DNA of 64,000 nucleotides from Prolixibacteraceae bacterium (GTDB lineage: Bacteria > Bacteroidota > Bacteroidia > Bacteroidales > Prolixibacteraceae): assembly GCA_019459525.1 (NCBI GenBank), contig JAIBEY010000068.1, positions 1 to 64,000 of the forward strand. Reading direction: 5' to 3'. Numbering within the stretch: position 1 is the first letter of the stretch; each line of letters begins with the position of its first letter. The notes under the pieces were generated by a model. That model was not told the DNA's origin, searched no databases, and worked only from the letters and a program-made list of their open reading frames with translations. The position numbers and the translations under genes were made by a program. Positions 12,763 to 48,644 of the stretch are shown in pieces.

Positions 12763-12773
12763 AGTTGTTCGAC

Positions 12774-14691: not shown

Positions 14692-14750
14692 CCTGAAACG
14701 CTTTAAAATAAGTGATTTGTAACATTGAAACCCGTCAAAATTTCAGGCCG

Positions 14751-14758
14751 CAAATATA
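14751..14758 (-). promoter_or_regulatory. -7 box (TATATTTG) for truB-queA
   Basis: An exact TAnnTTTG match 60 bases upstream of the truB ATG. The preceding sequence has a T-rich stretch but no well-spaced TTTG -33 element. Its presence suggests that truB-queA has its own promoter apart from the ftsX unit. Confidence 0.55.
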
Positions 14759-14979
14759 GCAATTCGATCGGCAAAAAACCAGACACGGATGGATTAGTTG
14801 AAATTGAAGGAAAGTGGAGGACGAAACCAAGGCAACAATTGCGAACCCTTTGACTTGCTAAAAGTTTACCAGAAACAGAAAGATCAATCTCACAAAGATA
14901 TCAATGCACTGAATTTCAGGCAACCATAAACCAGCTGATGAGCAGAACAAATGAAAGTAAAAACCTTGTTAACAGATTA

Positions 14980-15231: not shown

Positions 15232-15274
15232 GACGATCAAAAATTTTGTGCGAAGTTAGAGTAAAAGTTACAAA

Positions 15275-27005: not shown

Positions 27006-28312
27006 CACTAGTGGGCACTTAAAACCCACTGATTGTTAGTTGTTTATAATTTAGTTCTTTGACATTCTTGTAATCGCATTTTGTAAGTATTTCTCTTACA
27101 GGCGTTTTGTCGAGTAGAGAGATGCTGAGAATCTGTAGTATTTCGTAGATTGAGCGATCAACTTTCAATTTGTTACCGACAATGGCAACCAGACAGTAAG
27201 CAATGATCGCACAATAAATTTGGACCTTGACAGCATTCATGGTTGTTCCCCAAAAGGATTTTATCCGCAAGTGCTGTTTCATCCATTTGAATAACAGCTC
27301 AACCTCCCAACGTTTCTTGTACAACATGGCAATTTCTTCAGCTTTCAGATCCATATTATTGGTTATGAAGATGAAGGTTCGATCCCGATTTTGATCGTAA
27401 TATTTGATCCTGCGCAGCTTTCCCGGATAATCTTTTCTGGAATAGCATGTTTCCAGCCGACCAATTTGATCATAAAGGACTCCTGTTGTTTTGTCAACTG
27501 CACTGGAATACATTCGTTTAAATCGCATGTTGTCTTTAGCTCTTGTGACAAAAAACGATCCTTTTAAGTGCAATCTGTACAGTCGTTTGAAATCGATGTA
27601 TCCTTTGTCAACAATGTAAAAACTCCCTGTTTCATAAGGGATAAGATCCAAAATATTGACATCGTGAACACTGGCAGTTGTGATGTGCAAAAAGCTTGGA
27701 ATGGAGGTCTTCACATCGTAAAGGGTATGAAGTTTAATTCCTCCTTTATGCTTTCTGAATTCAGCCCACCAGAAGACACTTAAACACAGGTCTATCGTTG
27801 TGGAATCCAAAGCATAAATATTGCCATCAACACCGATCTCGAAATCGTCTTTATAACAGCTTCTTCTGGCTTCTTCGATCAAGACGTAGGCAAACTCTTC
27901 AAAGATCTTATAACTACGTTTTTCGTTTGCCTTGCCCAGGTTTCTGCGGGTGACGGTCGAACCCAGACCCAGATGATAATACTTGGATCCGTGAGCTTCA
28001 AGGCTCAACATTAAATCACGCATACTGTCTCTGGAAGTGAGTTGTCCGAAAACCATGCAGAGCATTTGGTTCCAGCATGTGAAATGTCTGACATACTTGT
28101 TACCCTGATGGTTTTCAACTATTCGATCAAAAATCCTGCGAGGTAAAAAATCTGTAAGTTGTGCGAAGATGTATTTGCCTTGATTCATGAGATTGGTGCT
28201 TTTGTTAAAGCTAAAAACCAATCATCAATTCAAATCGTCACGCTACAAAAAAACGCTACAATTGCGATGAATAAAGAATTTCAAAGAACATTATTTAATT
28301 TTTAGTACCCAT
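27006..28312 (-). mobile_element. Complete IS4-family insertion sequence (DUF4372 type)
   Basis: About 1.31 kb with one transposase gene. Ends: left GTGGGCACTTAAAA (from 27011) and right, read inward, ATGGGTACTAAAAA, matching at 11 of 14 positions. A 14-bp direct repeat flanks it. The left end has five extra bases (CACTA) before the matching part, so the precise end is uncertain by that much. The transposase is intact, so the element may be active. Confidence 0.8.
27019..28188 (-). CDS. IS4-family transposase (DUF4372 + DDE domain)
   Basis: From the ATG at 28186-28188 the protein has 389 residues and begins MNQGKYIFAQLTDFLPRR, the usual start of this family; an in-frame TTG upstream would add 11. 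The DUF4372 N-terminal domain (about 1-75) is followed by a DDE RNase H-like domain with YALDSTTIDL (first Asp), FYIVDKGYIDF (second Asp) and the Y-K-K-R-W-E-V-E-L motif with the catalytic Glu. The frame is uninterrupted. Its C-terminus resembles the partial transposase at the start of the window, showing two related elements in this genome. Confidence 0.93.
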   Translation of the reverse strand: MNQGKYIFAQLTDFLPRRIFDRIVENHQGNKYVRHFTCWNQMLCMVFGQLTSRDSMRDLMLSLEAHGSKYYHLGLGSTVTRRNLGKANEKRSYKIFEEFAYVLIEEARRSCYKDDFEIGVDGNIYALDSTTIDLCLSVFWWAEFRKHKGGIKLHTLYDVKTSIPSFLHITTASVHDVNILDLIPYETGSFYIVDKGYIDFKRLYRLHLKGSFFVTRAKDNMRFKRMYSSAVDKTTGVLYDQIGRLETCYSRKDYPGKLRRIKYYDQNRDRTFIFITNNMDLKAEEIAMLYKKRWEVELLFKWMKQHLRIKSFWGTTMNAVKVQIYCAIIAYCLVAIVGNKLKVDRSIYEILQILSISLLDKTPVREILTKCDYKNVKELNYKQLTISGF

Positions 28313-33256: not shown

Positions 33257-34840
33257 CTATTTATTCATTCTTCGGATTCCTTTTGCCTCATCAACGGGCA
33301 TCCTTAGTCCTTCTAATTTTTCTCCGGATACCTTATTCAGCAGTACCACCGGCATATCTTTGGCTGTTGGAATTTCTACAGATTCCAGTTTGATTCCTTT
33401 CACATCGTCGAAAACCATGGCCGGGCGGAAGTCGTCGGTTTTATAACTGATTTTTACATTCTTCATCCGGATTCCTTCTGCATGTCGTACATAAAATCCC
33501 CAGGCGGGCAATTCACCAAACATCGAAAATTCGGGATAATCGGGCTCACATTCAGGAACGGAAGTTACTTGGTCAGGCGGAATGCAGGCAATCTCTTTGC
33601 TGGCACCTCCGGCATAAGTGATTTCAACATTTTCGAGGGTGACATCCTGAATGATATGTCCGGGAATTCCGACAATCGACGATGGCAACAGGTTAAACGG
33701 TAACCAGGGGTGTCCGAAGAACGGATAGCCGGAACGACGGGCAGGCATTTTTTCTTTGTCGGGACTATTTACATCCGGAGGACCTTCGAGTGGGTAACCC
33801 TGATCAGGTTTGTGAAGCGGAATTTCGGCTTTCACATCGGCAATGTAAATACCTTTTACCGAACCGGCCTCTGCTTTTTTGTTGCGGTGTCCGAGACGAA
33901 TAAAAATAGCATTTCCGGTGTTGGTAGCTTTAATGTGCTGAATATCGATGTTCTCAATATGTCCGCCATCAACCGATTCGATGGCAATCGCCGAGCGGAA
34001 CGTGTCAAAAATGGTGAGGTTTTCGACTTTGATATTTTTGAATCCGCCATACGATGCGGTTCCCATTTTGAATGCACTGGCACTCGAGCGGATGGTACAA
34101 TTGGCCACATAAACATTGTCGCAGAAGTTGCCTGCTTTTTCCGATTTCAGGCAAATGCCATCGTCGGCAGCATTCACGAAACAGTTGATCACTTTTACAT
34201 TTTTACAATCAGAAATATCGATCCCGTCGTTGTTCCAGTACGAAGTACTTTGAACTTTGATTCCGTCGATAGTCAGGTTGGTGCAATTGATATAATCCTG
34301 CACCCAGCTGGCCGCGTTTTTCATGGTAACTCCTGAAATGTTTACCTGATCGCAACCTTTGAATACGACCAGCATCGGGCGTACTCCTTCAGATGGACGT
34401 ACACTCCAGCCTCCATTGTCGATGAGGGTTCCGGCGCGCAGCATACGGAAAACATCAAGCATCAACTCTCCGGCCTGTCCATCGATTACCCCTTCGCCGC
34501 TGATTGAAATGTTCTTTTGGTCTTTAGCAACCAGGAAGGCCATGGCAATAGGGTTGTCGTAATCGGTACGGGTGACACTTCCCAACAAACATGCACCTAA
34601 ATCGAGGTGAAGGTTTACGCCGGATTTTAAGGTTAAAACTCCGGAAGCAAAGTTCCCGGGCGGAATAATCACTTTTCCGCCACCATTGGCCGAAGCTTCG
34701 TCAATAGCTTTTTGGATGAACGGGCCGTTGTTGGTTCTCCCGTCAGCTTTGGCTCCATAGCTGGTAATTGGGTAATCTTTGGCTTGTGTATAACTGCAAA
34801 AGGTGAAAGCAGCAAACGCGACTAATAAAAATTTTTTCAT
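33257..34840 (-). CDS. GH28-family polygalacturonase-like protein
   Basis: The 527-residue protein has a signal peptide (cleavage near SYTQA-KDY) and a right-handed beta-helix. It begins the mature region with the GH28/pectate-lyase opening YPITSYGAKADG. The catalytic aspartates are recognisable in NNDGIDISDC and AADDGICLKS. The usual third motif GHG is not present; the matching stretch reads AFKMGTASYGGFKNI, and the RIK motif reads FRSAIAIESVDGG. This variant is common among Bacteroidota GH28 proteins and may mean exo-action or an unusual substrate such as rhamnogalacturonan. It is periplasmic or secreted. Confidence 0.85.
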   Translation of the reverse strand: MKKFLLVAFAAFTFCSYTQAKDYPITSYGAKADGRTNNGPFIQKAIDEASANGGGKVIIPPGNFASGVLTLKSGVNLHLDLGACLLGSVTRTDYDNPIAMAFLVAKDQKNISISGEGVIDGQAGELMLDVFRMLRAGTLIDNGGWSVRPSEGVRPMLVVFKGCDQVNISGVTMKNAASWVQDYINCTNLTIDGIKVQSTSYWNNDGIDISDCKNVKVINCFVNAADDGICLKSEKAGNFCDNVYVANCTIRSSASAFKMGTASYGGFKNIKVENLTIFDTFRSAIAIESVDGGHIENIDIQHIKATNTGNAIFIRLGHRNKKAEAGSVKGIYIADVKAEIPLHKPDQGYPLEGPPDVNSPDKEKMPARRSGYPFFGHPWLPFNLLPSSIVGIPGHIIQDVTLENVEITYAGGASKEIACIPPDQVTSVPECEPDYPEFSMFGELPAWGFYVRHAEGIRMKNVKISYKTDDFRPAMVFDDVKGIKLESVEIPTAKDMPVVLLNKVSGEKLEGLRMPVDEAKGIRRMNK

Positions 34841-34918: not shown

Positions 34919-37369
34919 TTATTTAATTGATTTGATTTCATATTCTCCCGGAAGTGCCTGAAAAATAACTTTCCCATTTTCATTCCGGAATTTGTTGTTT
35001 GGTTTTCCGTTCACGCTTACCTTCAGAGGATCGGCTGCCGGAACTGCTATTTCAGCAGTAGTTTTTTCAGGTACCAAAACATACAGACTGAAAGTTCCAT
35101 TGTCGTCTATTTTCCAATCGATCGAAATAGCTCCATAAGCTGTTGGCACAATTCCTTTGGCCCATTTCAGATCGCAGGGATTGGGTTTTACCGAGAAGGT
35201 TTTCCAGCCGGCAGAGACAGGTTCAGCGCCCAATACTTTTTGCGGAAGCAAAGCTGTTGGTCCGGAGCACCAGGCGTGTGAGCTTGTTGCTATTTCCCTG
35301 GGCCAGTTGGCGATGTCCCAGGCTTCGTGCCACCCTCCGTTGAATAGCGGTAATTTCATTTGCTCACCCCAGTATTTTCGGATGTAGTCGAGCGACCATT
35401 GCGGTTTTGCATCGAACATGGAATACAGCACATAATAGGCAAATGATTGTTCGCTGCTACGGTTATCGGCGGCCACTTTTTCAACCAGATTGGCTTTTTC
35501 TGCCGGATCGACCAAGCCGTAGAGCATGGCATAGACCTGCGTTTGCTGACTGCATTTTTTACTTCCGTAGCTGTCGAGGTAGAGTTCTTTTTCGGGCGAC
35601 CAAAGCCATTTTTTGATGTTTACTTTCAGTTCTTCGGCTTTTTTTGTCCACACATCAGCTTGTTGCTGGTCGCCGTTTATCGTTCCGGCGACCAAAGCAG
35701 CCTGGTTTAATGCGCCATAATAAAGGCAGTTCAGTCCGGTTATTTCGCCTTTCTGATCCATCGGATACGTGTCGGGGTGGTCGAGCACGATCCATCCCGG
35801 AACTTTCGAAAGCAATCCATGTTCTTTTCCAACAAGCGATTCCAGGTAGCCCATCAACTTTTTAAGGTTCGGGTAGATCTGGCGCAACAGATTGGCATTA
35901 CCGAAATACTGGTAATATTCATCCAACATGATCACGTATTCCAGCTCATAATCGACCAGGTAAGCCGAAGTGTTTTCGCCCAGCAACCAGTCGGTAGGGT
36001 AGCGCGAGCGGATGGAGCCGTCATCTTTCCAGCGTTGCGACCAGATACCCGACAAAATGTTGTAGTGCATCAGGTATTCGGAACTAAGTCCGAACGGATA
36101 ATAGGCGTACTTCTGCAAATAACGGCTGTCGCCGGCAATGTATTGGGTTTGTTCGCGCCAGGGAGTATCCATGTAAGTGTCTTGCGCGCAAAGCTTCAGG
36201 GTAAAAATGCCGGTTTCGTAAATTTTATTTAGTAATGGATCCGAACATTCAAAGCTACCTTCATCAGTATAATTGTAATGCTGGCTAACCGACGACACAC
36301 TTTTGAAAATCAGGCTGTCGCTGGCCGAAAGGCAGAGGTATCGAAACCCGCGCCAGGTCAGCGGGCTCCACGTTTGCAGTCCTTTTTTGCTGAGGTAACA
36401 ATCGGTATAATCGACTCGTTTTTTGTACAGGATGGTGCTGTCGGGCAAAACGCGTTCCGAGGTTCCCATTTCGAAACGCGCTCCGTCGTACTTCGAAAAT
36501 AGTTCGATGACTGGTGTTCCGGTGATTTCCTTTCCAAAGTCGTAAACGATTTTATCACCGGCAAACCAGTGTTTCACCGGATAAACTCTTTCGCGGAAAA
36601 GTGGAGGCCGGTTGATTTCGACGATGCTGTTCCAGGGAGCAAACGGTGGAATTCCCAATTTTTTGGCAGCTTGCCATTTTGAGTCATCGAACTCAGGTGC
36701 TTTCCAGTTTTCGGGCATTTTTCGGGCATCATATTTTTCGATAAAGCCAATCAGGTTTGGCCTGCGTTCTGCATTTCCGGTGCGCAGTTCAGTAGCGTTG
36801 TCCCAGGCTTCGGCTTTGGCAACTTTCCACGATTGATCGCTGGTGATTAGCTGAATGTTGTTTTTGTCGAAGGTCAGTTTTCCCTGAAAAAAGAAGCCGC
36901 CGCGTGCATTAATCCGGTGCGACATTCCGAGTCCAAAGTTGTACACCAGTGCCGAAATCGTGTTTTCCCCTTTCTGAAAATAGCCTGATAAATCGTATTG
37001 TTCATACACCTGATATTCCGGGTCGCAATTCGTGGGGCAACGCTCAACCAGCTTGCCGTTGATATATACATCGGCATACGAATAGGCCGAAATGAACGCT
37101 TTGGCTTCGGAGGGAACTTGCTTCAGCTCAATGGTTTTTCGAACCATCAGGTAATAGTTTTTCGGATTATCTTCGCCCGAATCCCAGATCCAGTTGGCTA
37201 CTGGTGTTTTACCATCCAACAGTTTCGAAGGTGCTGAAATAGTAGCTCCCGAGTTCACTTGTCCGAATGAAAGAAGAACTCCATTCCACAAAATAATACC
37301 GAGGAGAATACATCGTATTCGGTTGGTTTCAGGTTTAATCTTCATTTTTGTTTGTTCTGTTTTTAGCAT
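34919..37369 (-). CDS. GH78-like alpha-L-rhamnosidase (copy 1)
   Basis: The 816-residue protein has a signal peptide (the ATG eight codons in, at 37345, may be the true start). Beta-sandwich domains (about 45-390) include VANWIWDSGEDNPKNYYLMVRK. A six-hairpin barrel (about 400-720) has DTPWREQTQYIAGDSR, the region of the GH78 acid residues, then LDHPDTYPMD and SSHAWCSGPTALLPQ. A C-terminal beta-sandwich follows. GH78 enzymes remove terminal alpha-L-rhamnose from pectin-type or flavonoid glycans. A paralogue with the same layout lies at 51361-53766. It is exported and probably periplasmic. Confidence 0.85.
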   Translation of the reverse strand: MLKTEQTKMKIKPETNRIRCILLGIILWNGVLLSFGQVNSGATISAPSKLLDGKTPVANWIWDSGEDNPKNYYLMVRKTIELKQVPSEAKAFISAYSYADVYINGKLVERCPTNCDPEYQVYEQYDLSGYFQKGENTISALVYNFGLGMSHRINARGGFFFQGKLTFDKNNIQLITSDQSWKVAKAEAWDNATELRTGNAERRPNLIGFIEKYDARKMPENWKAPEFDDSKWQAAKKLGIPPFAPWNSIVEINRPPLFRERVYPVKHWFAGDKIVYDFGKEITGTPVIELFSKYDGARFEMGTSERVLPDSTILYKKRVDYTDCYLSKKGLQTWSPLTWRGFRYLCLSASDSLIFKSVSSVSQHYNYTDEGSFECSDPLLNKIYETGIFTLKLCAQDTYMDTPWREQTQYIAGDSRYLQKYAYYPFGLSSEYLMHYNILSGIWSQRWKDDGSIRSRYPTDWLLGENTSAYLVDYELEYVIMLDEYYQYFGNANLLRQIYPNLKKLMGYLESLVGKEHGLLSKVPGWIVLDHPDTYPMDQKGEITGLNCLYYGALNQAALVAGTINGDQQQADVWTKKAEELKVNIKKWLWSPEKELYLDSYGSKKCSQQTQVYAMLYGLVDPAEKANLVEKVAADNRSSEQSFAYYVLYSMFDAKPQWSLDYIRKYWGEQMKLPLFNGGWHEAWDIANWPREIATSSHAWCSGPTALLPQKVLGAEPVSAGWKTFSVKPNPCDLKWAKGIVPTAYGAISIDWKIDDNGTFSLYVLVPEKTTAEIAVPAADPLKVSVNGKPNNKFRNENGKVIFQALPGEYEIKSIK

Positions 37370-37384: not shown

Positions 37385-38782
37385 TTACTTAATCTTCCAT
37401 TCATTTTCAATGTCTTCCAGCGATAAGCCTTTGGTTTCAGGAATTAATCTCAGAATGAAAGTAACCGGGATGCAACAAAGGGCAAAAACAAAGAATGTAA
37501 TTGCAGGTGACAAGGTTTCGAGCATCCATGGCACAACCTGACCAATAATTGCAGTACCGACCCATAACATCAGAGTGGCGATAGACATGGCTCTACCTCT
37601 CACGTTTGTTGGATATATTTCGGATAGAAGTACCCAGATGACAGGCCCAAAGCCAATTTCGAAAAAGGTGATGAAGGCGATGATACATCCAATTAGCAGA
37701 AACCCTTCGGTTTGTTTCAGCAGGAATAAAAGGCCAACGGCCAGCAATGAAAAAAACATTCCGGCAACGCCAATATTGAGCAGCTTTTTACGGCCATATT
37801 GATCGATTTTCCAGATGGCGAAACCGGTGGTCACTGCATTTACAATGCCAATGACTACTTGTCCGCCCAAGGCATCGCCCAGCTTCAGTCCAGCTTCTTC
37901 CATGATGCGTGGTCCGTAGTAGATAATGGCATTGATTCCGGTGAACTGTGATAGCAGTGCCAGTGCAATTCCGGCAAACATGGCGATGCGTATTCCCGGA
38001 CGAAACAATACGGCCCATGAGCCTTTTTCTTCTTTGGCCAATGTTTCTTTAATAGAGCTTAGTTCTTGTCGTGCGACCAGCGAACCGTTGATTTTGGCAA
38101 GAATAGCTTCTGCTTTGTCGTTGTTTCCTTTGGCTGCAAACCAACGTGGACTTTCGGGAACAAAGAACATGGCCAGAAAAAAGAAAATCGCAGGAATGGC
38201 TGAAGCTCCAAACATCGATCGCCATACTTCTGTTACAAAAACTTTATGCCATACTCCGCCATCCGAGAATAACCCGGGGCTGACACTTAGTTTCATTAAC
38301 CCGGCATTAGCTAGATAAGCGGCCACAATTCCCAGGCAAATGGCCAGTTGGTACAAAGCCACCATCCGGCCTCGAATTTTTGCCGGCGAAACTTCGGAAA
38401 TGTAAAGTGGCGAAAGCATGGAGGCAATTCCAATTCCCAGTCCGCCAACCAACCGGAAGATGATTAGTTCGGTATGTGAGCCGCACAGCGCGCAACCAAA
38501 GGCCGATGCGCAGAACAATAATCCGGAAACGATGAGCGATGCTTTTCGTCCGAAACGATCCGACATTTCTCCGGCCATCATTACCCCGAGGATACAGCCT
38601 ACCAGGGCAGAACTTACAAACCAGCCTTCCATCAGGGTCGATAAGGCGAATTGTTGTTTAACCAGGCTAATGGTTCCTGAAATTACGGCTGTATCGTAGC
38701 CGAACAGAAATCCTCCGAAAGCCGCGGTCAGTGCGATAAATATTAAATAGGAATTATTTTTTTGTTGGGTTGATTGAGTCAT
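37385..38782 (-). CDS. Sugar-porter (SP) family MFS transporter
   Basis: The 465-residue protein has 12 helices and the sugar-porter signatures GGFLFGYDTAVISGT near the start, DRFGRKAS, PLYISEVSPAKIRGR, PESPRW and the C-terminal PETKGLSLEDIE. It is related to XylE/GLUT-type proton-sugar symporters in the inner membrane. With the GH78 gene 15 bp upstream it likely imports the released monosaccharide (rhamnose, a hexose or pentose; not resolvable by eye). It sits directly next to the radical enzyme genes, suggesting their substrate derives from the imported sugar. Confidence 0.92.
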   Translation of the reverse strand: MTQSTQQKNNSYLIFIALTAAFGGFLFGYDTAVISGTISLVKQQFALSTLMEGWFVSSALVGCILGVMMAGEMSDRFGRKASLIVSGLLFCASAFGCALCGSHTELIIFRLVGGLGIGIASMLSPLYISEVSPAKIRGRMVALYQLAICLGIVAAYLANAGLMKLSVSPGLFSDGGVWHKVFVTEVWRSMFGASAIPAIFFFLAMFFVPESPRWFAAKGNNDKAEAILAKINGSLVARQELSSIKETLAKEEKGSWAVLFRPGIRIAMFAGIALALLSQFTGINAIIYYGPRIMEEAGLKLGDALGGQVVIGIVNAVTTGFAIWKIDQYGRKKLLNIGVAGMFFSLLAVGLLFLLKQTEGFLLIGCIIAFITFFEIGFGPVIWVLLSEIYPTNVRGRAMSIATLMLWVGTAIIGQVVPWMLETLSPAITFFVFALCCIPVTFILRLIPETKGLSLEDIENEWKIK

Positions 38783-38873: not shown

Positions 38874-41030
38874 TCAGCTCTCGAGAATGCGTTCGACAAC
38901 CAGTTGCCTGAATTCAGGGGTTAACATCGAGAAATAGGCCGTGAAACCGGTTACACGAACTACCAGTTCAGGATATTTTGCCGGGTCTTTATGGGCATCC
39001 AGAATTTGGTCTTTGTCCATGATATTCACATTGATCAGTGTTCCTCCCAGTTCGAAATGGGTTTTGATGATGGAGCCAATCAATTGTGCCTGATCCTGTG
39101 TGGCCAGTGTGGGGTCGAGTTCCCATTGCATCGGGGCCGTGTTCCCAAATCCGGGCTGAATCTGGGCAACAGCACAGGCCAATGCCAATGACGCCCCGTC
39201 TTTCGAAAACCCGGGACACGGATTGGCACCGTGCGAAATCGGGGTTTTGCTTTTCCGTCCATTGGGTGTTGCGCCCACATGTTGACCAAAGCCAATGGTG
39301 TTTGCCCATGAAAAGAATCCGGGAATAAACGTGTGACGAAGTTCCGGATTGGATTCTTGGCGAACCAGTTGGGTAAATTCTTCACCTATCTTTTTTGCCC
39401 ATTGGTCGCCCAGTGAGTTTCCCTGTCCGTAGCGCGGACTGTTTTTCAACAATAGCCTGATTTTTTCGCCTTCAATGCCTTCAAAATCACTCTCCAAATG
39501 ATAGGTCACTTCTTCCCAGCTTGTTTTCTTTTCTTCTTCAATCCGGAGTTGAAGGGCAGCAAACGAATCGGCAACAATAGCCAGGCCTGCACCGTCGATA
39601 GCCAGATTGTAATATTCTGCGCCTCCGTCACTCACATCAAGTCCCCGTTCAAGCGGGCCATGACTAAGCAGGTTTAAGATCAATTCCGGTTCGTTGTATT
39701 TCTGGTATTTCAGTTGGTGACGGATTCCGTCAGCGGCTGTCCGAACTGCTTTAGCCAGATGTGGAGTGTAAATAGTCCACAAACGTTCGGTGGATGGTTT
39801 GTCTGATTTATCCTGCATCATTTCCTGATAGGCCACTTCAAAAACTTTGGCCATGTTCACTTTTACCAGGTCGTTCATGGTGTATTCAAGCCCCGGAAGC
39901 GACATCCAGTTGCACCCTACGGCAATACGTTGACGCGCCAGTTGAGCATCAAATCCGTTTTTCATGAAGCCTTCAACCAGTGCTTTGTCGCCCGAATAAC
40001 GAGGCCAGGCATTTTTATTTTTGATGAGGTAATACAACGATTTGTCGTACAATTCCTGATTCATTCCGTCGTGTACCCGAATGGTTAAGTTGATGGAACA
40101 GTTGGCTTTGTCGGCAGCATCCAGAATCAGAAATGAAATTTCAGATGTTTGGTCAATGCCATCTTTATTTGGGCCACCCAACTGCCAATAGATGGTATCA
40201 TTCAGCATGAAACAAGCCAGCATATAAACTGCTTTTTCGCGGTCGATGCGTCCTTCGGCAAGGTCTTTTTCGTAAAATGGGCGCAACATTTCGTCGATTT
40301 GTCCACCGGCACCATCACGGTTGTAGGTACGGGATGCCAGGTGATACCAGATGATCCACTGGATCGCTTCGCGCAGGGTTTGGGGCGCTTGGGAGACAAT
40401 GTTCCGGTTGGTCTCGGCCATCTCTTCCAGATTGGCTTTTAACTTCGGATCGGTTTCTTCCTGAATTCGTTGTTCAGTCAGGTCGATATGTCGTTCAATC
40501 CATCCCTGGATGCTTTTCACAACCTGCTCATGCGCATCGTAAAACTTAATCTGTTCGGGCGAGGTGTTTATTTTGCGGTAATGCTCAATTTTGTCGAGAA
40601 TTCCTTGCCAGCCGAGTGAAAGTCCGAGTTTATAATCAGGTGCAAAGTGAGCATCGTCGCCAATTCCGGCGATGATATCGTATTTTTCAATATTCTCTTT
40701 CAGGTGATCGAATGGATAATTGGGATTCCATTTGTTGGCCCGCATACGCGACATGAAATACACCCAGCGACCGGCAAATGCGTCGTTCGGATCAACATAA
40801 ACCGGATGTGAATCCATTAAGCTGCAAAAATTCTGAGTCCAGCCTTCCAGACCGTAAAACGATCCGTCGGGATGATTGGGAATACTTTTCCAGGCGTTGG
40901 CAGGTGGGAGAACCCGTCCGTAGTCGTCTTCATCCAGAAGTCCTTCTACTTCTATTTTTTCGCGGGTTTGGGCAAATTTGCGCGACCGAAGGTGGTCGAT
41001 CCGTGATTGATAACTAAATGAATTTTCCAT
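38874..41030 (-). CDS. Glycyl radical enzyme of unassigned class (Cys-Asn-Trp active site)
   Basis: The 718-residue protein has a PFL-like domain and an intact radical loop RVTGFTAYF (G695). The active-site loop IAVGCNWMSLPG places the thiyl cysteine at C373, but the residue two after it, glutamate in glycerol, propanediol, choline, isethionate and hydroxyproline enzymes, is tryptophan (W375). It is also short: 718 against about 780-850 residues. It does not have the adjacent double cysteine of pyruvate formate-lyase. A new substrate class is therefore likely. A dedicated activase lies 79 bp upstream, and the pair is embedded among sugar transporters and glycosidases. A sugar or sugar-acid substrate is inference. 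Confidence 0.85.
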   Translation of the reverse strand: MENSFSYQSRIDHLRSRKFAQTREKIEVEGLLDEDDYGRVLPPANAWKSIPNHPDGSFYGLEGWTQNFCSLMDSHPVYVDPNDAFAGRWVYFMSRMRANKWNPNYPFDHLKENIEKYDIIAGIGDDAHFAPDYKLGLSLGWQGILDKIEHYRKINTSPEQIKFYDAHEQVVKSIQGWIERHIDLTEQRIQEETDPKLKANLEEMAETNRNIVSQAPQTLREAIQWIIWYHLASRTYNRDGAGGQIDEMLRPFYEKDLAEGRIDREKAVYMLACFMLNDTIYWQLGGPNKDGIDQTSEISFLILDAADKANCSINLTIRVHDGMNQELYDKSLYYLIKNKNAWPRYSGDKALVEGFMKNGFDAQLARQRIAVGCNWMSLPGLEYTMNDLVKVNMAKVFEVAYQEMMQDKSDKPSTERLWTIYTPHLAKAVRTAADGIRHQLKYQKYNEPELILNLLSHGPLERGLDVSDGGAEYYNLAIDGAGLAIVADSFAALQLRIEEEKKTSWEEVTYHLESDFEGIEGEKIRLLLKNSPRYGQGNSLGDQWAKKIGEEFTQLVRQESNPELRHTFIPGFFSWANTIGFGQHVGATPNGRKSKTPISHGANPCPGFSKDGASLALACAVAQIQPGFGNTAPMQWELDPTLATQDQAQLIGSIIKTHFELGGTLINVNIMDKDQILDAHKDPAKYPELVVRVTGFTAYFSMLTPEFRQLVVERILES

Positions 41031-41062
41031 ATTTCGTTAATATTAAAATGTATCACTTTTTT

Positions 41063-41151
41063 AACCACAGAGATTACAGAGGGAAAAACAGAGTGGATAG
41101 AGTCTTGTCTTACTCAGTGTCCTCAGTTTGTCCTCCTTTTTCTCTGTGGTT
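41063..41151. repeat. Inverted repeat that reaches into the activase coding end
   Basis: AACCACAGAGA (41063-41073) and its complement (41141-41151), separated by partial CAGAG and CAGTGTCCTCAGT motifs. The right arm lies inside the activase gene, so that protein's last residues (about NHREKGGQTEDTE) come from repeat sequence. Confidence 0.7.
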
Positions 41152-42030
41152 TATGGTGTATTTTACAATCTCCTGAAACCGTTCCAGTCTTTCTTTCGAA
41201 AGGTCTTGCGTTTGCCCCATCGGATTTTTCAGTTTCAGATTGGTGTACTTACAGCTTGCCAATGTGTGGAATGGAAGCAATTCATAGTTCTTCACATTTT
41301 TAAGCGAAGCCACAAACGCTGCCATTGCCGAAATTTCCGCTTCATTATCGTTTATATCAGGAACAACAGGAGTTCGTATAAAATACGGAACCCCCGATGC
41401 GTCGAGCTTGTAAATGTTTTCAAGAATAGTGGTATTGTGTCTTCCTGTCCATTTTTGGTGAAGCGCGTTATCCATCATTTTTAAGTCAGCCAGAACCAGG
41501 TCGGTGAATGGAAGTACTTTCTCGTACTGCTTCCACGAAATGCTCAGGTTGGTATCGAGAGCGGTATGGATTCCTGCCTTTTTAAACAACGCCAATGTTT
41601 GCTTGGTAAACTCTGGCTGAAGCATGGGTTCTCCGCCTGAAATGGTGACCCCACCTCCGGAATTGCTAAAGAAAGGGAAATCCTGTTCAACCTCAGTAAA
41701 AACATCTTCGGGAGTAACTTCCCGACCGATTTTGTTGATGGCTTCGGCATAGCAAACCTGTAAACAGTCGAAGCAGGATGTACACAAGTTTTTCTGAAAG
41801 TCGGGTTTCCCATCTTTTAGAGAAAACGCTCCGGTTGGACACACTTCCGTACAGGAATTACATCCGATACATTTTTGCTGAATCCATTCCAGTTCCGGAT
41901 TCATACTCAGCGTTTCCGGATTGTGACACCAGCCGCAGTGCATGTTGCAGCCTTTCAGAAACACGGTTGACCGTATTCCCGGGCCATCGTGCAGCGACAT
42001 GCGTTGTATGGTTGTAATTCGTCCGATCAT
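41110..42030 (-). CDS. Glycyl-radical enzyme activase (radical SAM), partner of the 718-residue enzyme
   Basis: The 306-residue protein has a radical SAM motif C28, C32, C35 (CNMHCGWC). Two ferredoxin-type 4Fe-4S motifs follow (C54/C57/C60/C64 and C83/C86/C89/C93), as does SGGEP (131-135). The order and length match the activase at 11350. It lies 79 bp upstream of the unassigned glycyl radical enzyme and no other partner is near, so it should install that radical. Its C-terminal tail is encoded by a palindromic repeat (41063-41151) and is probably not functionally important. Confidence 0.93.
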   Translation of the reverse strand: MIGRITTIQRMSLHDGPGIRSTVFLKGCNMHCGWCHNPETLSMNPELEWIQQKCIGCNSCTEVCPTGAFSLKDGKPDFQKNLCTSCFDCLQVCYAEAINKIGREVTPEDVFTEVEQDFPFFSNSGGGVTISGGEPMLQPEFTKQTLALFKKAGIHTALDTNLSISWKQYEKVLPFTDLVLADLKMMDNALHQKWTGRHNTTILENIYKLDASGVPYFIRTPVVPDINDNEAEISAMAAFVASLKNVKNYELLPFHTLASCKYTNLKLKNPMGQTQDLSKERLERFQEIVKYTINHREKGGQTEDTE

Positions 42031-42122: not shown

Positions 42123-45056
42123 TTACATCTCCAAATAGAGTGTTACCACTTCATAAGGCAAAACGGTTAAATTGCTTCCGGCGGTTTTCCCGGGAACTTC
42201 GCGGAAGTCGCTGATGCGTATTGCTTTTGGCGCTCCGGCAGGCCATCCGAGATTAACTTTTTCGGGTGAAGCCGACAGTGAACGCAAGCGGAGAATGATC
42301 CCTTTTCCGTCGTCGCTAAGCTTAAGTGCTGAAACAAAAACATTCGGGTTATCAATCGAAAGCAGCGATTTTGTCACCGGGTTTTTGTCAGTTTCAACCA
42401 CTACCAGCGGACGGTTTTGCTCCATTCCGAAGCGGTTGGCAACAACAGGATCGTAGCCTTTGTGCGGCAAAATCTGATAATTCAACCGGATAATTCCTCC
42501 TTGTTCGAGCGGGAAATTGGTGTGCCAGTGATTATTCAACGCCCAAGAGAAAATGGTTTGCGATTTTGGAAGTGTTTTCAGCCAATTCTCCGGTTCACGG
42601 GCTCCTCCCAAAATGTTGGCAGTTATGTTGCCCAACTCAATCAGTGGTGTTTCGATAGCCGACCAGGTGACTCCGTAATCGTTGTTCGAAACGTCGATCC
42701 AGCGTTGAGCAGCCAGCCAGTTGCGGTTTCCTCCCGGTAGCTGATCGTATTCCGGAATCATTACGCCCATTGGGATGTCCATGCGGGTTGTTCCATCGGG
42801 AATATTGAAAGCAAATCCGAAATGAACCCCTTCTTTTTCCTGAGTGCTGATTTTATCGAGGGTATTGGTCATTTCAGCCCAGGCTTGCCCCTGAGTCAGG
42901 CGGATTTCGCTTTGCAACGAATTACAACCTTCGGCTTTTGAAGTCACCAATAATGAATTTACCAGCGGTCCTTTTTCTTTTACGGTGATCTGCGCATTTA
43001 CCGGAGCTGCTGCTTTGGAGGCACTATCGGCTCCGTGTAAATAGCGGTAACCGTTTACCAGATAAGGCGATTTTTGGTCGACAAATTCGTGCCCGCTCAA
43101 ATCTTTCAGGCTTTTAATTGCACCGGAAACCGGATCAATGGATATTGAAATCAAATCGTTGGATAGTGTGTTGCCGGATACTTTTCCTTTTCCGGCACCG
43201 GATGCATTTCCTTTACTGATATGGTAAAGCGATGAACCAAAGGCAGGTACGTCACTGGCCATAAATGCCAATTCTCCGGTACTAAGCCGTTGTGAAGTAA
43301 CTGTTTTGCCTTTTTCGTCAGTTACGCGATCACCGGCTTTACTTTGTTCGGCACTGAGGGTTACCAGAGATGATCGTTTCCACGATAGCGTGTTCAGCAC
43401 TGCAAACGTATTTGTTCCTTGTTTTTCCAATGGTTGAAGCGTCTTTTTCAGCAAATCGGTACTGGTTTTGGCTGCATTCTCGAAATACGACGCTTTGGTT
43501 GCTTCTACTTCCTTGGCCATCGGAACTTTGGGGTCTTTGTATCCCCAGGTATGTTCAGCTCCAAGCAGCACATAACGCCACGAATCGTAGAACTCGTTCA
43601 CCGGCGCTTTTTGATTTTGATAAAGCATCGGCCATAAGGTTTCGGTTTGTACCAGTCGTTCTTTGGCGTAACGGTTAAGCCCGACCCGTTTAGCATCGGT
43701 TCCCAGCCCGTCGGTCCAGTATTCGGTATAATCGCCTTTTGCCTCGGGAATGATGGATGCGTATTTATCTTCGTAAGCTTTTAAAACTTCGTCGGAACCG
43801 GAGATAATCAGTTTTGGATACGCATATTTTTCATTCCACAGTCGGACTGCTTCGGGAAGATCAGCATCAATCAGGCAGTTGTCGGCCATGGCCCAGGTCA
43901 TTGAAAAGATGTCGTAAGGCGAATTGGCTGCTTCCAGTTTGGCTGTTTCTTCAAAAATCATTGGATCAATAAATGTTGCGGTCGGGTCAGCGGTGCTTAG
44001 GCGGTCGAGCGCCGGATCGTACGTCTGAATTTTCTTGATTCCGTAGATTTTTTTGCCTTTTAGTTGGTAGGCATATCCGTATGGACAACCCTGAAGGAAC
44101 AGAATTTTCGATTTTCCATCCGGTCCAACCCAGTAAAACGGTTTGTGTTCCCAGGCTTGCCTGATAGTTCCAATGCGGTCGTAATGGTTCGGGTAACAAA
44201 AGAATCCTTTGATCCCGTTTTGAGCCGCCGCCGGAACGACGCCCCATCCTGCGCCGGGAATATCGAACTGAACCATCGTTTTTACCGGAACGCCAATTTC
44301 TTTGGATATTTGGTTTGAATACTTAAACAGTTGCAGCAATTCTTCGTCGGAACAAGCACTGGTGTTGGTATTGGCGTAGTTACCATCCAGGCGTATCCAT
44401 CCTTTGCGGACAGCATCGAAAAAAGCGGCTTTCTTTTCCGGAGTAGCTTGTTTTAAGTAGCTTTCGACTACCCATCCGGCTTCGGTGTTCCAAACATAGC
44501 GCGATCCTTCAGGATAATACTGTGTTTTTTTTGCCATGTCGATAGCCACATCGATGTTGCGGACATGTATTTTTTCAACGATTTCCTGCTTGTCGGTGTA
44601 TCCAATATCGACATGCGAGTGCGGATAAATGTAAACCGTCCAGTGTCGTTTTACTGGAACCATCACCGAGGTATTAAGTTCCCGTCCGTTGGATGTGACT
44701 TTTATGCGTGCCTGACATTCTTTTTTCTCACCGCATCCTGCTGGTAATAAAACCGGAATTTGTTCGATTCCGTTTGGATCTTCCAGCAAAGTGGATTCTT
44801 TTATTCCGTCACATTCCAATTCAACGGTTGCTTTCCCGTAGAGTTTAGAGCCTTTCAGTTGAACGGTTATTTCGCGTCCGGCTGAATGATCAGCGCGATA
44901 CTTGTACCATGGACGAACGGTACATTCTATTCCGGACGGAAATGGATGGTTTTCCGTTGCTTGTGCCGGTTTGTTTTTAGTATTTGCCTGAGTTCCGAAG
45001 AAAAGGCAAAATGCAAACAGAAGGCAAACTAAATTTTTAATTGATGTCGTTTTCAT
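42123..45056 (-). CDS. GH38-like glycosidase (DUF5054-type) A
   Basis: From the ATG at 45054-45056 the protein has 977 residues with a signal peptide (MKTTSIKNLVCLLFAFCLFFG). An earlier in-frame TTG would run into the upstream transporter gene and is rejected. After a beta domain the GH38-like barrel opens with PHSHVDIGYTD (metal-binding H-x-D) and contains VQFDIPGAGWG, in the position of the GH38 nucleophile loop. A long beta-sandwich C-terminal half follows, as in alpha-mannosidases. GH38 enzymes are zinc-dependent alpha-mannosidases, but this subgroup's motifs differ, so the substrate is open. It is exported, probably periplasmic. Confidence 0.8.
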   Translation of the reverse strand: MKTTSIKNLVCLLFAFCLFFGTQANTKNKPAQATENHPFPSGIECTVRPWYKYRADHSAGREITVQLKGSKLYGKATVELECDGIKESTLLEDPNGIEQIPVLLPAGCGEKKECQARIKVTSNGRELNTSVMVPVKRHWTVYIYPHSHVDIGYTDKQEIVEKIHVRNIDVAIDMAKKTQYYPEGSRYVWNTEAGWVVESYLKQATPEKKAAFFDAVRKGWIRLDGNYANTNTSACSDEELLQLFKYSNQISKEIGVPVKTMVQFDIPGAGWGVVPAAAQNGIKGFFCYPNHYDRIGTIRQAWEHKPFYWVGPDGKSKILFLQGCPYGYAYQLKGKKIYGIKKIQTYDPALDRLSTADPTATFIDPMIFEETAKLEAANSPYDIFSMTWAMADNCLIDADLPEAVRLWNEKYAYPKLIISGSDEVLKAYEDKYASIIPEAKGDYTEYWTDGLGTDAKRVGLNRYAKERLVQTETLWPMLYQNQKAPVNEFYDSWRYVLLGAEHTWGYKDPKVPMAKEVEATKASYFENAAKTSTDLLKKTLQPLEKQGTNTFAVLNTLSWKRSSLVTLSAEQSKAGDRVTDEKGKTVTSQRLSTGELAFMASDVPAFGSSLYHISKGNASGAGKGKVSGNTLSNDLISISIDPVSGAIKSLKDLSGHEFVDQKSPYLVNGYRYLHGADSASKAAAPVNAQITVKEKGPLVNSLLVTSKAEGCNSLQSEIRLTQGQAWAEMTNTLDKISTQEKEGVHFGFAFNIPDGTTRMDIPMGVMIPEYDQLPGGNRNWLAAQRWIDVSNNDYGVTWSAIETPLIELGNITANILGGAREPENWLKTLPKSQTIFSWALNNHWHTNFPLEQGGIIRLNYQILPHKGYDPVVANRFGMEQNRPLVVVETDKNPVTKSLLSIDNPNVFVSALKLSDDGKGIILRLRSLSASPEKVNLGWPAGAPKAIRISDFREVPGKTAGSNLTVLPYEVVTLYLEM

Positions 45057-45085
45057 TCTTATAAATCTTTCTTTTTGTAGGCCAA

Positions 45086-46237
45086 TTATTTTTTCAGAAC
45101 ATACACCGCAATGCCAGCTACATAAGCGATGCAAAATACCGGGATCAACATGCCTGTCTGGGCTGTAAAAGCCACATTGGTAAATCCCATTAAAGGAGGG
45201 ACAATAGCTCCGCCAACAACTGACATAATCATCAATCCGGAAAGCTCGTTGCTGCGATTCGGATTTTTATTGATGTTTAAGGCAAACAGAATGGGAAATA
45301 AATTGGCAGAACCCAATCCGGCAAAGAACAAAGCAATGCTTGCCACCGTTAGTGATTGGGAACCGACGAACATCAATAAACTTCCCAATGCAACGGTAGC
45401 GCTGATCAAGAGAAATTTCTTTGGATTAATCCAGTTCAGGATAAAAGTACCGCCAAAACGGCCAATCATCAGGGCTGTGTAGTAAATGCTGATTTTGTAT
45501 GAAGCATCTTCGAGGCTGATGGAAAACTTGTCTTTCAAGAAGTTGGCAATGTTGGAGTTCAACCCAACTTCGGCTCCTACGGAAAGAAAAATTCCCAGAA
45601 CGAGCAGAAATACAAAACGATTGTTCAGTAATTTCAGGCACGACTTAAAACTAGCCACTTCGCGGTCGGGTTTCGATTCTTCGATAAACGTGAATTTCAG
45701 CCAAAGTACAGCCAATAATGAAGTGACCCCGTAGATGGCAAAGACCAGTTTCCAGTTTCCAAACCAAAGCGCCATTCCGGAGGCAATAATTGGTCCCAAC
45801 ATGGAACAAATGGCCTTTACAAACTGGCTAAGGCTCATGAAGCTGGAGAACCGTTCGTGCGGAACTACGTCGTGCAGCAAAGGGTTTGCGGCAACCTGAA
45901 CAATGGTGTTGCCAATGCCAAGCAGCAGAAAAGTCGTTAGCATCATTGGAAACGAGTAGCTGATAAATGGAAGCCCCATGGCGATTCCGGTGATAAGCAT
46001 TCCAAGGTTCATCATGTTGCGCTTCCCAAATTTATCCTGAAGGATTCCGACCGGAAGCGATAAAAGGAAAAACCAGAGGAATGCACTCAGCGGAATAAGC
46101 TGCGCCAGGTTGTCGGGCAGCGAAAAATCTTTCTGCACAAAACCAGTTGAAACGCCCACAATATCGATGAAGCCCATAACTACAAAACCGAGTAGTAAAG
46201 GCAGTAGCTTGTTTAATTTGATCGATTGACCTGACAT
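45086..46237 (-). CDS. FHS/FucP-like MFS sugar transporter
   Basis: The protein has 383 residues from the ATG at 46235-46237, chosen because the upstream extension would overlap the URO-D gene. It has 12 helices, and the FHS-family motif appears as GNTIVQVAANPLL. Relatives import fucose, glucose/galactose or other deoxysugars with protons. It lacks the sugar-porter signatures of the transporter at 37385, so the locus has two carriers of different families. It stands between a URO-D-like gene (7 bp upstream) and a GH38-like gene (29 bp downstream), a tight operon. Confidence 0.85.
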   Translation of the reverse strand: MSGQSIKLNKLLPLLLGFVVMGFIDIVGVSTGFVQKDFSLPDNLAQLIPLSAFLWFFLLSLPVGILQDKFGKRNMMNLGMLITGIAMGLPFISYSFPMMLTTFLLLGIGNTIVQVAANPLLHDVVPHERFSSFMSLSQFVKAICSMLGPIIASGMALWFGNWKLVFAIYGVTSLLAVLWLKFTFIEESKPDREVASFKSCLKLLNNRFVFLLVLGIFLSVGAEVGLNSNIANFLKDKFSISLEDASYKISIYYTALMIGRFGGTFILNWINPKKFLLISATVALGSLLMFVGSQSLTVASIALFFAGLGSANLFPILFALNINKNPNRSNELSGLMIMSVVGGAIVPPLMGFTNVAFTAQTGMLIPVFCIAYVAGIAVYVLKK

Positions 46238-46244: not shown

Positions 46245-47270
46245 TTATTTTGAATAATTACGTGCTGTTTCGACAAATGCGCGGATGTTGGCTTCTGGTG
46301 TCGTTGATGGAAGCGCGCAACCCGAATTCAGGATGAATCGGTTTGTTTTCGAAAATACATCGAGCAATTCGGTGGTTTTCAGCCTGACCAATTCGGGTGT
46401 TCCTAATGCCAGAACTCCGCTGGGGTCAATGTTTCCGGTGAAGGTTACTTTATCGTGCAGGATTTCGAAAGCCTTGTACATGTTGGTTTTGTAATCAATT
46501 TCAAAAGCGTCGGCTCCGGTTTTGAGCATGTGTTCCAGAATCAGTTCGGTGTTTCCACAGATATGCAGGGTGTAAAACATCCCCGCCTGATGGGCTGTTT
46601 CAACCACTTTTTTCTCGTAAGGCATGGCAAATTCTTCGTACATTTCAGGTGAAATCATTTCGGGGCCAGCCGGACTGTCGCCATTCGAAACCATGTGAGC
46701 GCCGGTTTGCGCCATCAGCTTGATGAACTGGCAACTGGCTTCGGTACAATAGTCGAGCATTTCGGTAATTTGTGCTGGTTCGGCAATAAACAAATCGAGC
46801 ATCCAGGGTTCGGTACCGCGAATCATGCTGGCCAGCGAAAACGGAGCCTGGTCGCAATTGCCACGTACCAGAATTTCATTGCCAAAATGTTCTTTTAACA
46901 GACGAACCGATTCGAGCCAAATCTGGATGTATTTGTAATTTTCGACATTGACTGGTTTAAGCGATTTCAGGTTTTCAAGCGAATCGAGACAACCCTTGTG
47001 CGAGCGGGCTGGCGAATCATCCGGAAAATCGACCGGAACGCCCACTGCTCCAGCCAGGGTGACGGTATCCATATCGACAAGAATTCCGTCGAGATCGTAT
47101 TTCTCTACGGCATGAATAAATGTATCGGCAATCAATCGGGGACTTTCGCGAAATTGTCCCATCGAAATTTTCATCTCTGCGGCGGCTGCCATAAAATTAT
47201 GGAGCATCACCGGTATTTTATCGGTTGGCTCACCTTTCAGTGCAGCAACCATTCGTTCGTATCCGTTCAT
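46245..47270 (-). CDS. URO-D/MtaA-like zinc protein A
   Basis: The 341-residue protein has the uroporphyrinogen-decarboxylase-fold barrel. It is not a haem enzyme: the uroporphyrinogen-binding N-terminal motif is missing, and it has zinc-ligand candidates H236 and C238 (LHICGN) and C318 (NSGCALP), the pattern of MtaA/MtbA-type corrinoid methyltransferases. Those move a methyl group between a corrinoid and a thiol or folate. No corrinoid protein is encoded nearby. A role in removing methyl or other one-carbon groups from sugars is possible but speculative. It overlaps no gene and is followed 7 bp later by an FHS transporter. Confidence 0.8.
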   Translation of the reverse strand: MNGYERMVAALKGEPTDKIPVMLHNFMAAAAEMKISMGQFRESPRLIADTFIHAVEKYDLDGILVDMDTVTLAGAVGVPVDFPDDSPARSHKGCLDSLENLKSLKPVNVENYKYIQIWLESVRLLKEHFGNEILVRGNCDQAPFSLASMIRGTEPWMLDLFIAEPAQITEMLDYCTEASCQFIKLMAQTGAHMVSNGDSPAGPEMISPEMYEEFAMPYEKKVVETAHQAGMFYTLHICGNTELILEHMLKTGADAFEIDYKTNMYKAFEILHDKVTFTGNIDPSGVLALGTPELVRLKTTELLDVFSKTNRFILNSGCALPSTTPEANIRAFVETARNYSK

Positions 47271-47390: not shown

Positions 47391-48644
47391 TTATTTGGTC
47401 ATTGCATCAATTCTCCGTATCAGTTCCATCATGGCCCTTCCATTGTGGTAAGGGCATTTCCATGGATCGATTTTCCAGTTGTTGCGGTAGTATGGTGAAG
47501 GATCGTTGGCCAGTTCTTCCAGATAAGGAACTCCCAACCGGTTCAACTTGGTGAACCATTCGCCACGTTCATGATCAATCAGGCAGGTGTCTATGAAGTT
47601 CCAGCTAAGTTTTACTGTTTCCCAGTATTTGACATCGCCGGTCAGTTCAAAGGCATTCATAAAACCCACCAGTGTTTCGGCCTGCAACCACCAGTGTTTA
47701 TTGGTGCGGACGTGACTTCCGTAGCGATAGGATTCGAGGAAGAGACCTCCATCTTTATCGACTGCAACCCGCTCAATTTTATCGACCATTTCGATGGCTA
47801 TTTTTCTCATCCGGGCCAGAATTTCCGGATTGTCCAGTATTTCGGCAGCTTCGTACAGCAACCATGATCCTTCGATGTCGTGGCCAAACGAGCAGATTCC
47901 GGCGGAAGATTCAGCTTCATGAAAAGCATTGTCGAAGAAGATTCCGAAGTGGCGATTTTTACGGATAATTTTGTCGAGAAACAGGTTCATCAGTTCGGTC
48001 AGGCGAAGTTTTACCTTTTCATCTTTCCATACCCGGTAAAGAGCGGCATAAGCTTCGAGAACGTGCAGGTGAGTATTCATCGATTTAGGCTCGTTGTTAT
48101 CGGCCATCCGGTTTTCTTCGTAGATTTTCCAGTCGCGGGTGAACGATTCCATGTATCCGGGATACTGCGGGTCTTTGGTTTTTTCTTCCAGCAGGGCAAA
48201 GAAGTCTTTGATTTTCTGAAGAACTTCTGCTTTAGGGTTAAACTCGTAGTATTTGCACAGCGAATACAGTACAAAAGCCTGGGCATAGGTATGTTTTATG
48301 TCGTTGGCAACGGCATTGGAAGAGCTTAGTTCCATGTAATATCCGCCATAAACCTGGTCGGCAAAATCTTCAGTGACTACACGATATGCTTTTTTAGCTA
48401 TTTCAGCATATTCCGGTTTGTTAAACTGAATGGCTGCCGATGCAAAAGTCCACAGAATACGGGCATTCAAAACACTGGTTTTGTTGGCTGAAAGAACAGG
48501 TTCGTTGTTCATGTCCACAGCACCGTAAAAGCCATGTCCGTCTTTTTCAACTCCGTATTTCATCCAGTAATTCAGGATGTTGTTGTGCAGTTCGTTTTCG
48601 AACTTTCCGCGATAGCTCAAAAGCTGGGTTTGTATTGGATTCAT
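47391..48644 (-). CDS. AGE-family sugar epimerase (cellobiose 2-epimerase-like)
   Basis: The 417-residue protein is an (alpha/alpha)6 barrel of the N-acylglucosamine 2-epimerase superfamily. Motifs include MNTHLHVLEAY (H192, H194), SFGHDIEGSWLL (H255), HWWLQAE and CPYHNGRAMME (H399). The histidines correspond to the catalytic pair of cellobiose/mannobiose 2-epimerases. No signal peptide, so it is cytoplasmic. These enzymes interconvert glucose and mannose at the reducing end of beta-1,4 disaccharides. It starts 1 bp after a GH38-like gene's stop, so the two are coupled. Together with GH38-like enzymes, mannose/glucose interconversion in the pathway is plausible. Confidence 0.9.
   Translation of the reverse strand: MNPIQTQLLSYRGKFENELHNNILNYWMKYGVEKDGHGFYGAVDMNNEPVLSANKTSVLNARILWTFASAAIQFNKPEYAEIAKKAYRVVTEDFADQVYGGYYMELSSSNAVANDIKHTYAQAFVLYSLCKYYEFNPKAEVLQKIKDFFALLEEKTKDPQYPGYMESFTRDWKIYEENRMADNNEPKSMNTHLHVLEAYAALYRVWKDEKVKLRLTELMNLFLDKIIRKNRHFGIFFDNAFHEAESSAGICSFGHDIEGSWLLYEAAEILDNPEILARMRKIAIEMVDKIERVAVDKDGGLFLESYRYGSHVRTNKHWWLQAETLVGFMNAFELTGDVKYWETVKLSWNFIDTCLIDHERGEWFTKLNRLGVPYLEELANDPSPYYRNNWKIDPWKCPYHNGRAMMELIRRIDAMTK

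Follow-up and report, generated by a model that had tools for sequence, protein, structure and literature searches.

A widespread glycyl radical enzyme class with tryptophan in its cysteine loop, encoded beside glycan-degradation genes and probably acting on a simple sugar

In glycyl radical enzymes (GREs) an activase generates a radical on a glycine residue, which then gives rise to a thiyl radical on a cysteine, and this order is standard for the superfamily. In GRE eliminases the glutamate of a CxE motif hydrogen-bonds a hydroxyl of the substrate and has been proposed, for most of these enzymes, as the base for the ketyl radical (PMC7077986 and PMC8473560). The CxE group comprises glycerol dehydratase (GDH), PD, CutC, HypD, IslA, PflD and YbiW. 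Sugar derivatives are already known as substrates of PflD and YbiW, which open 1,5-anhydromannitol-6-phosphate and 1,5-anhydroglucitol-6-phosphate after uptake by the phosphotransferase system (PTS), but these enzymes have CxE and act on phosphorylated anhydro-polyols (PMC12441222). Many abundant GREs of gut genomes are described as lacking a known function (PMC11574389). Here we describe a GRE encoded in the first 64,000 nucleotides of contig JAIBEY010000068.1 (assembly GCA_019459525.1, a Prolixibacteraceae bacterium), a stretch referred to as the window. The enzyme has a tryptophan in place of the CxE glutamate, and its probable role is to degrade a simple sugar through a so far undescribed kind of radical chemistry.

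The GRE gene lies at 38874-41030 on the minus strand and encodes 718 amino acids with Pfam matches to PFL-like (351.2 bits) and Gly_radical (48.5 bits). In minus-strand order it is preceded by a 306-amino-acid activase (41110-42030, minus strand) which has Radical_SAM (63.5 bits) and 4Fe-4S ferredoxin domains and passes the NCBIfam model TIGR02494 (341.4 bits against a cut-off of 174.35). The glycyl radical loop RVTGFTAYF occupies residues 692-700 (38931-38957, minus strand), with Gly695 as the radical residue, and the thiyl cysteine loop GCNWMSLPG occupies residues 372-380 (39891-39917, minus strand). Cys373 aligns with a cysteine in all ten comparison GREs outside the two tryptophan-bearing clades described here, and the Trp375 column forms part of CVE or CIE in each of the seven CxE sequences compared. 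The first-pass annotation had reported both open reading frames, an intact glycyl loop, a dedicated activase, the replacement of the CxE glutamate by tryptophan (numbered C373, W375 and G695) and the absence of the Cys-Cys pair of pyruvate formate-lyase (PFL), which aligns as CC against GC at residues 372-373; all of these were borne out. Its statement that the protein is about 60-130 residues shorter than most dehydratases holds against YbiW, CutC, the Pdu-type GRE and three HypD proteins (787-850 amino acids) but less well against PflD (765) and PFL (760). The GCNW motif is not a sequencing error, as it is present in all four relatives retrieved by a whole-protein search made without the motif (67-76% identity; L002, L008, L009 and L010 in our locus numbering). 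An AlphaFold2 model computed from an alignment of 64 sequences (mean pLDDT 92.6, pTM 0.92) matched solved GREs with TMq 0.75-0.86 among the 50 matches listed, and the protein is predicted to adopt the ten-stranded barrel fold of the superfamily. Judged from its sequence, the gene encodes an oxygen-sensitive GRE of a widespread but unstudied class, called here the GCNW class.

Compared with described systems, the window enzyme resembles PflD and YbiW in its predicted GRE fold, its activase, a probable sugar-derived substrate and a counterpart of His128, and PflD additionally has counterparts of Asp132 and Asp387. PflD and YbiW differ in having CxE, a segment between barrel strands 2 and 3 and a length of 765-810 amino acids, whereas the window enzyme has tryptophan and lacks the segment. 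They also receive phosphorylated anhydro-polyols through a PTS, while no PTS or kinase occurs among the annotated neighbour clusters of the GCNW class. The B12-independent glycerol/propanediol dehydratase (GDH; 1r8w; Pdu-type GRE) shares the fold, the cysteine and glycine loops and the residues His164 and Asp447, but the window enzyme lacks the CxE glutamate and its loop opposite His281/Ser282 is shorter (GDH residue numbers were counted by hand on the 1r8w row). The annotated GCNW neighbour clusters contain no microcompartment genes, in contrast to the Pdu-type GRE. PFL has the same fold and glycyl radical domain, but it carries the Cys-Cys pair absent from the window enzyme, which matches 1h16 with only 77 bits.

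The distance from named families is large. The window enzyme falls far below the cut-off of every NCBIfam equivalog listed, including the PFL model TIGR01255 (87.6 of 994.2 bits) and the trans-4-hydroxyproline dehydratase model NF043068 (184 of 1100 bits), and its best NCBIfam model is the subfamily TIGR01774 (273.7 of 678.2 bits). Against solved structures it reached 180.6 bits at most (2f3o), with about 130-166 bits for the other eliminases. As a control, E. coli YbiW scored 551 bits against glycerol dehydratase and 371-507 bits against the other solved eliminases, a range that sets aside its near-copy 6xs4. The window enzyme, at 130-181 bits, is therefore farther from the eliminases than these are from each other. 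Membership in a known GRE family is rejected on the cut-offs, the structure-match scores and this control. In a tree, PFL, YbiW, PflD, CutC, the Pdu-type GRE and HypD all fell outside a group made up of the GCNW enzymes and a second tryptophan-bearing clade with the motif GCQW. The two clades, proposed here as a sugar-linked GC[NQ]W group, sit together on one side of a branch; its support is 99/98 under a long-branch warning, and 100/100 once the long rows were removed. The unassigned class proposed in the first-pass annotation thus stands, in that no clustering within a characterised family with tryptophan at this position was found and the only close kin by motif is the uncharacterised GCQW clade. 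The titles and abstracts listed by our search of open-licence literature, with subscription papers outside its scope, contained nothing on tryptophan-type GREs, nor on GREs that use mannose or fucose. Two very divergent second GREs with very long branches were seen near GCNW enzymes (L108:7067-9214 and L115:15024-17183, both plus strand), with odd cysteine loops (GCG... and GCNQ), and are possibly further unassigned GRE classes.

The GCNW enzyme is a member of a widespread family and not an isolated oddity. A scan of 84,980 genomes with two peptides as queries returned 151 related stretches, of which 80 were kept (46-76% identity), from Bacteroidota, Planctomycetes, Verrucomicrobia, Lentisphaerae, Kiritimatiellae, Clostridia, Paenibacillus, Treponema and others; by their record titles, many come from rumen and gut assemblies. 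Close relatives are sparse around the source genome: 2 of 198 genomes of its order and 4 of 140 genomes of its family, its own included, gave a match of at least 67% identity. An alignment of the window enzyme with members from 63 of the 80 loci (the other 17 being partial, near-copies or omitted for size) has H128, D132, R234, R238, Q283, N386, D387, K390, E637 and G695 invariant in 64/64 sequences, as well as C373, N374, W375 and M376. The invariance of the loop, and of GCNW in 80/80 loci, is partly by construction because all 80 hold the search peptide AVGCNWM. Less biased evidence comes from the 18 loci in which the second search peptide is also present, all with GCNW, and from the four whole-protein relatives, two of which are also scan contigs. 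This bias does not touch the tryptophan of the window enzyme itself, the remoteness of that enzyme from known families, or the evidence from neighbouring genes.

The genes around the GRE were surveyed in 83 loci, with Pfam run on part of the neighbour genes and other family labels assigned by BLAST. Offsets were obtained for 80 of them, as L064, L098 and L102 had no called open reading frame for the GRE despite a tblastn match. An activase homologue is present in 63/83 loci, and in 54 of the 80 it immediately precedes the GRE. The recurring order in Bacteroidota is an AraC regulator, the activase, the GRE, a cupin of about 139 amino acids, a sugar transporter (of the RhaT family or a major facilitator superfamily (MFS) porter of the window type) and alpha-mannosidases. 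By BLAST, glycoside hydrolase (GH) family 92 occurs in 12 of the 83 loci, GH47 in 8, GH130 in 5, GH38 in 4, GH78-like genes in 4 and GH29 in none. The survey of neighbours suggested by the first-pass annotation thus found alpha-mannosidases recurring beside the GCNW clade, which strengthens the sugar reading.

Searches for GH47 (PF01532) and GH92 covered 30 genomes, L055 lying outside these and the RhaT search. A strong GH47 match was found in nine genomes, as a single copy in each, and in eight of the nine this copy is at most three genes away from the GRE; a tenth genome's weak match (E 4.5e-4) was excluded. Random placement would give this proximity with a probability of 6e-21, but four of the eight cases are Flammeovirga and hence not independent. 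Outside the 30-genome set, Flammeovirga kamogawensis p1 and Persicobacter psychrovividus pPP6 again have GH47 close by, no more than two genes from the GRE, and the former locus also has GH130, SusC/SusD and a sulfatase nearby. These two modules (L134 and L135, respectively) sit with GH47 and SusC/SusD on secondary replicons and may therefore move between strains. GH92 is found near the GRE in 10 of the 30 genomes against 1.5 expected from copy number (p 7e-7, related genomes not being independent); this test used gene clusters, which gave 11 GH92 loci where BLAST gave 12. Directly after the cupin in L056, a single 1645-amino-acid frame (12549-17483, plus strand) contains RhaT, GH92, PA14 and GH28 domains, which links the transporter with a family of alpha-mannosidases. 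The L064 genome, too, has RhaT and GH92 matches within one frame, as does the L059 genome in shorter form. In F. kamogawensis and in L110 and L116 the GRE has GH130 nearby, and five loci of Verrucomicrobia, Kiritimatiellae and Lentisphaerae carry an SSF symporter.

The cupin (for example L047:12237-12662, plus strand) has homologues in 23/83 loci by BLAST, and in 20 of 21 clustered cases it is the gene immediately after the GRE. No Pfam family was assigned to the two members scanned, a WbuC-like match being below the cut-off (20.4 of 42), and the closest solved structure is that of C. acetobutylicum CA_C3497, a protein of unknown function (101.7 bits, TMq 0.92). It is the best candidate for the step after the GRE. 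No kinase or aldolase was found among the recurring clusters of the annotated part of the neighbours, though single genes occur, one aldolase among 81.

The sister clade has a different sugar context. Its enzymes are about 757 amino acids long, carry GCQW in all five found (L003, L004, L011, L012 and L128) and are 26-28% identical to the window enzyme. They share with it the tryptophan at Cys+2, a short chain and the absence of about 20 residues between barrel strands 2 and 3 (from an alignment with four GCQW members). Besides the tryptophan, R234, H600, Q635, E637 and N667 are common to both clades and unseen in seven CxE sequences (L128 not aligned). The GCQW clade differs in its neighbours, with a FucP-like or sugar-porter transporter nearby in 5/5 loci and at least one GH29 alpha-L-fucosidase in 4/5, against 0.38 expected from GH29 copy numbers (p 1e-4); in the fifth locus (G930) no GH29 was found within the 20 kb read. 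The contrast between mannosidases in one clade and fucosidases in the other supports each enzyme handling the monosaccharide freed next door. In GCQW locus L040, the activase beside the GRE (10891-11855, plus strand) is divided between two overlapping frames, owing to either a frameshift or an error in sequencing, and one homologue of the URO-D family is also present.

Part of the GDH active site is kept. In a profile alignment to 1r8w, His128 (codon at 40647-40649, minus strand) lies on GDH His164 and Asp387 (codon at 39870-39872, minus strand) on GDH Asp447, and this alignment places the His/Asp part of the site in the window enzyme. HypD Ser334, Asp339 and Phe340 and GDH Phe333 line the substrate pocket (PMC7077986). 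By residue spacing, the stretch absent from both tryptophan clades is the one that holds these residues, and, as judged from the alignment, losing it should open up space for a bulkier substrate, for instance a sugar ring.

Taken together, the evidence leads us to favour, tentatively and with slightly less than even confidence, an uncharacterised class of GRE eliminases that would act on a free, unphosphorylated monosaccharide released by neighbouring exo-glycosidases, D-mannose being the likeliest substrate of the GCNW clade. From the conservation of both loops, the activase would set the radical on Gly695, from where it would pass to Cys373. The Cys373 thiyl would then abstract a hydrogen from the bound sugar, a hydroxyl would depart as water with the aid of His128 and Asp387, and the hydrogen would be given back. 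The net reaction would convert an aldose to a dehydrated deoxy-keto sugar, an anhydro-ketose or a deoxy-lactone (C6H12O6 to C6H10O5 for a hexose). A first guess at the reaction places the radical at C1, with the C2 hydroxyl then lost and a 2-deoxy-aldonolactone formed. Trp375 may stack on the sugar ring. A base of the CxE type would be unnecessary if the radical forms beside the ring oxygen, for example at C1, because this oxygen can support loss of the neighbouring hydroxyl; the invariant Glu637, which is Lys or Arg in the seven CxE sequences, is a second candidate base. A fuller version, in which the enzymes serve a fermentative, kinase-free dehydration of free hexoses, D-mannose in the GCNW clade and L-fucose in its sister, and in which tryptophan replaced glutamate since the ring oxygen or Glu637 suffices, is more speculative and we regard it as possible rather than likely.

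Several observations weigh against D-mannose and the elimination proposed for it, alongside the Flammeovirga-rich GH47 cases and the search-peptide bias noted above. By BLAST, only 26/83 loci have any of GH92, GH47, GH38 or GH130, and 57 have none, some of these loci being short. The GH38 labels of L071 and L074 are weak in Pfam, and the GH130 label of L079 comes from BLAST only. L043 carries a PL8 lyase, an unrelated glycan gene. Many clostridial loci have pairs of Gfo/Idh/MocA oxidoreductases, five of these loci having a TIM-barrel AP_endonuc_2 protein as well. No downstream enzyme for the GRE product was identified in the survey. The window itself has no GH92, GH47 or RhaT by BLAST, its mannosidase link being three divergent GH38-like genes, and it has three GH78-type genes and a GH28 gene that point to rhamnose or pectin. 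D-mannose is accordingly carried over to the window enzyme from its 67-76% identical orthologues, because the mannosidase evidence in the window is weaker.

The glycan locus of the window runs along the minus strand on both sides of the GRE and activase. Downstream lie a sugar porter of the MFS, likely an importer (37385-38782; PF00083, Sugar_tr, 396.7 bits), which clusters with the GRE-linked porters of L065 (a locus with GH92) and L066 (with GH47), a GH78-type alpha-L-rhamnosidase-like gene (34919-37369; Bac_rhamnosid domains; two others are at 31282-33165 and 51361-53766) and a GH28 gene of the polygalacturonase family (33257-34840; Glyco_hydro_28, 74.2 bits). Upstream are the three GH38-like putative alpha-mannosidases (42123-45134, 48646-51282 and 57694-61116; Glyco_hydro_38N at 53.1, 68.6 and 95 bits, respectively), the second of which matches solved GH38 structures weakly (44.2 bits at best). 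Next to the second is an AGE/cellobiose 2-epimerase-like gene (47391-48644; Pfam GlcNAc_2-epim) whose nearest solved relatives are cellobiose 2-epimerases (272 bits) and which remains below its NCBIfam cut-off (312.2 of 800). Two MtaA/CmuA-like genes of the URO-D family are also present (46245-47270, PF01208, 239.9 bits; and 56444-57682, Pfam URO-D). The porter, GH78, GH28, GH38-like and epimerase neighbours listed in the first-pass annotation were all recovered by Pfam. Its deduction of a sugar-derived substrate from them gains from the mannosidase and fucosidase context elsewhere, but the pectic look of the window (GH78, GH28) is not the recurring pattern. The source genome has 19 GH92 genes, none of them on the window contig among the matches listed, and no GH47 match in the PF01532 search. 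Its only two PFL-like matches are the window GRE and a second GRE at 8831-11293 (plus strand), which is followed by its own activase at 11350-12258 (plus strand). An IS4 family transposase (27019-28221, minus strand; 277.3 bits against a cut-off of 115) lies at the locus edge.

The strongest alternative as to substrate keeps the same kind of enzyme and has it act on L-rhamnose or another pectic monosaccharide, in the whole clade or at least in the window. The GH78-type and GH28 genes just described fit it, the recurring transporter belongs to the RhaT (L-rhamnose-proton symport) family, and the last domain of the L056 fusion protein is likewise a GH28. In the same fusion, however, the RhaT domain is joined to a domain of an alpha-mannosidase family, and a reading restricted to pectin or rhamnose is lowered because GH78-like genes recur in only 4/83 loci, against 12 for GH92 and 8 for GH47. 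We consider L-rhamnose unlikely, although it is the alternative that survives best.

The enzyme might instead not be an eliminase and might use its radical for C-C cleavage, isomerisation or epimerisation of a sugar. The ketyl-forming base described for other GRE eliminases (PMC7077986 and PMC8473560) is absent here, and PFL likewise lacks a glutamate at that position, having serine. Invariant His128 and Asp387, the counterparts of GDH His164 and Asp447, speak for elimination, as does the lack of a second cysteine as in PFL, and, among the profile matches whose reaction is known, the best are eliminases. Such non-eliminating chemistry seems distinctly unlikely.

A third proposal is a lyase that opens the ring of an anhydro-sugar or glycoside, similar to PflD and YbiW but with an unphosphorylated substrate such as 1,5-anhydromannitol. 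PflD is the top solved-structure match of the family profile (283.5 bits), and it converts 1,5-anhydromannitol-6-phosphate to 1-deoxyfructose-6-phosphate (PMC12441222; title of 8id0). The clostridial Gfo/Idh oxidoreductases belong to a superfamily that includes anhydrofructose reductase. One enzyme of the pair is nevertheless nearest to solved DgpA (178.7 bits against 76.6 for anhydrofructose reductase), the other being uninformative, and the CxE glutamate of PflD is tryptophan here. In addition, no alpha-mannosidase is known to make anhydro-sugars. We rate this lyase as improbable.

The substrate could also be a methylated or sulfated sugar prepared by neighbouring URO-D family proteins or sulfatases. 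URO-D homologues occur in 6/83 GRE loci, with two copies in the window, and the F. kamogawensis locus has its sulfatase, but no URO-D homologue was found in the other 77 loci within the available DNA, the count covering URO-D only. We consider a modified sugar very unlikely. A drifted but ordinary PFL or known dehydratase, as might be read from the automatic label of this class, "pyruvate formate lyase family protein", can practically be dismissed, given the score of 87.6 of 994.2 bits with the PFL model, the other equivalogs far below their cut-offs and a widely conserved family with invariant residues of its own.

If elimination from a free monosaccharide is correct, the GCNW class would provide a radical-based entry to the degradation of a common sugar. 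The tryptophan class is also a natural test of the need for the CxE glutamate in elimination by GREs. Hosts among named strains (Flammeovirga, Persicobacter, Labilibaculum and Paenibacillus sp. S150) make the class directly testable.

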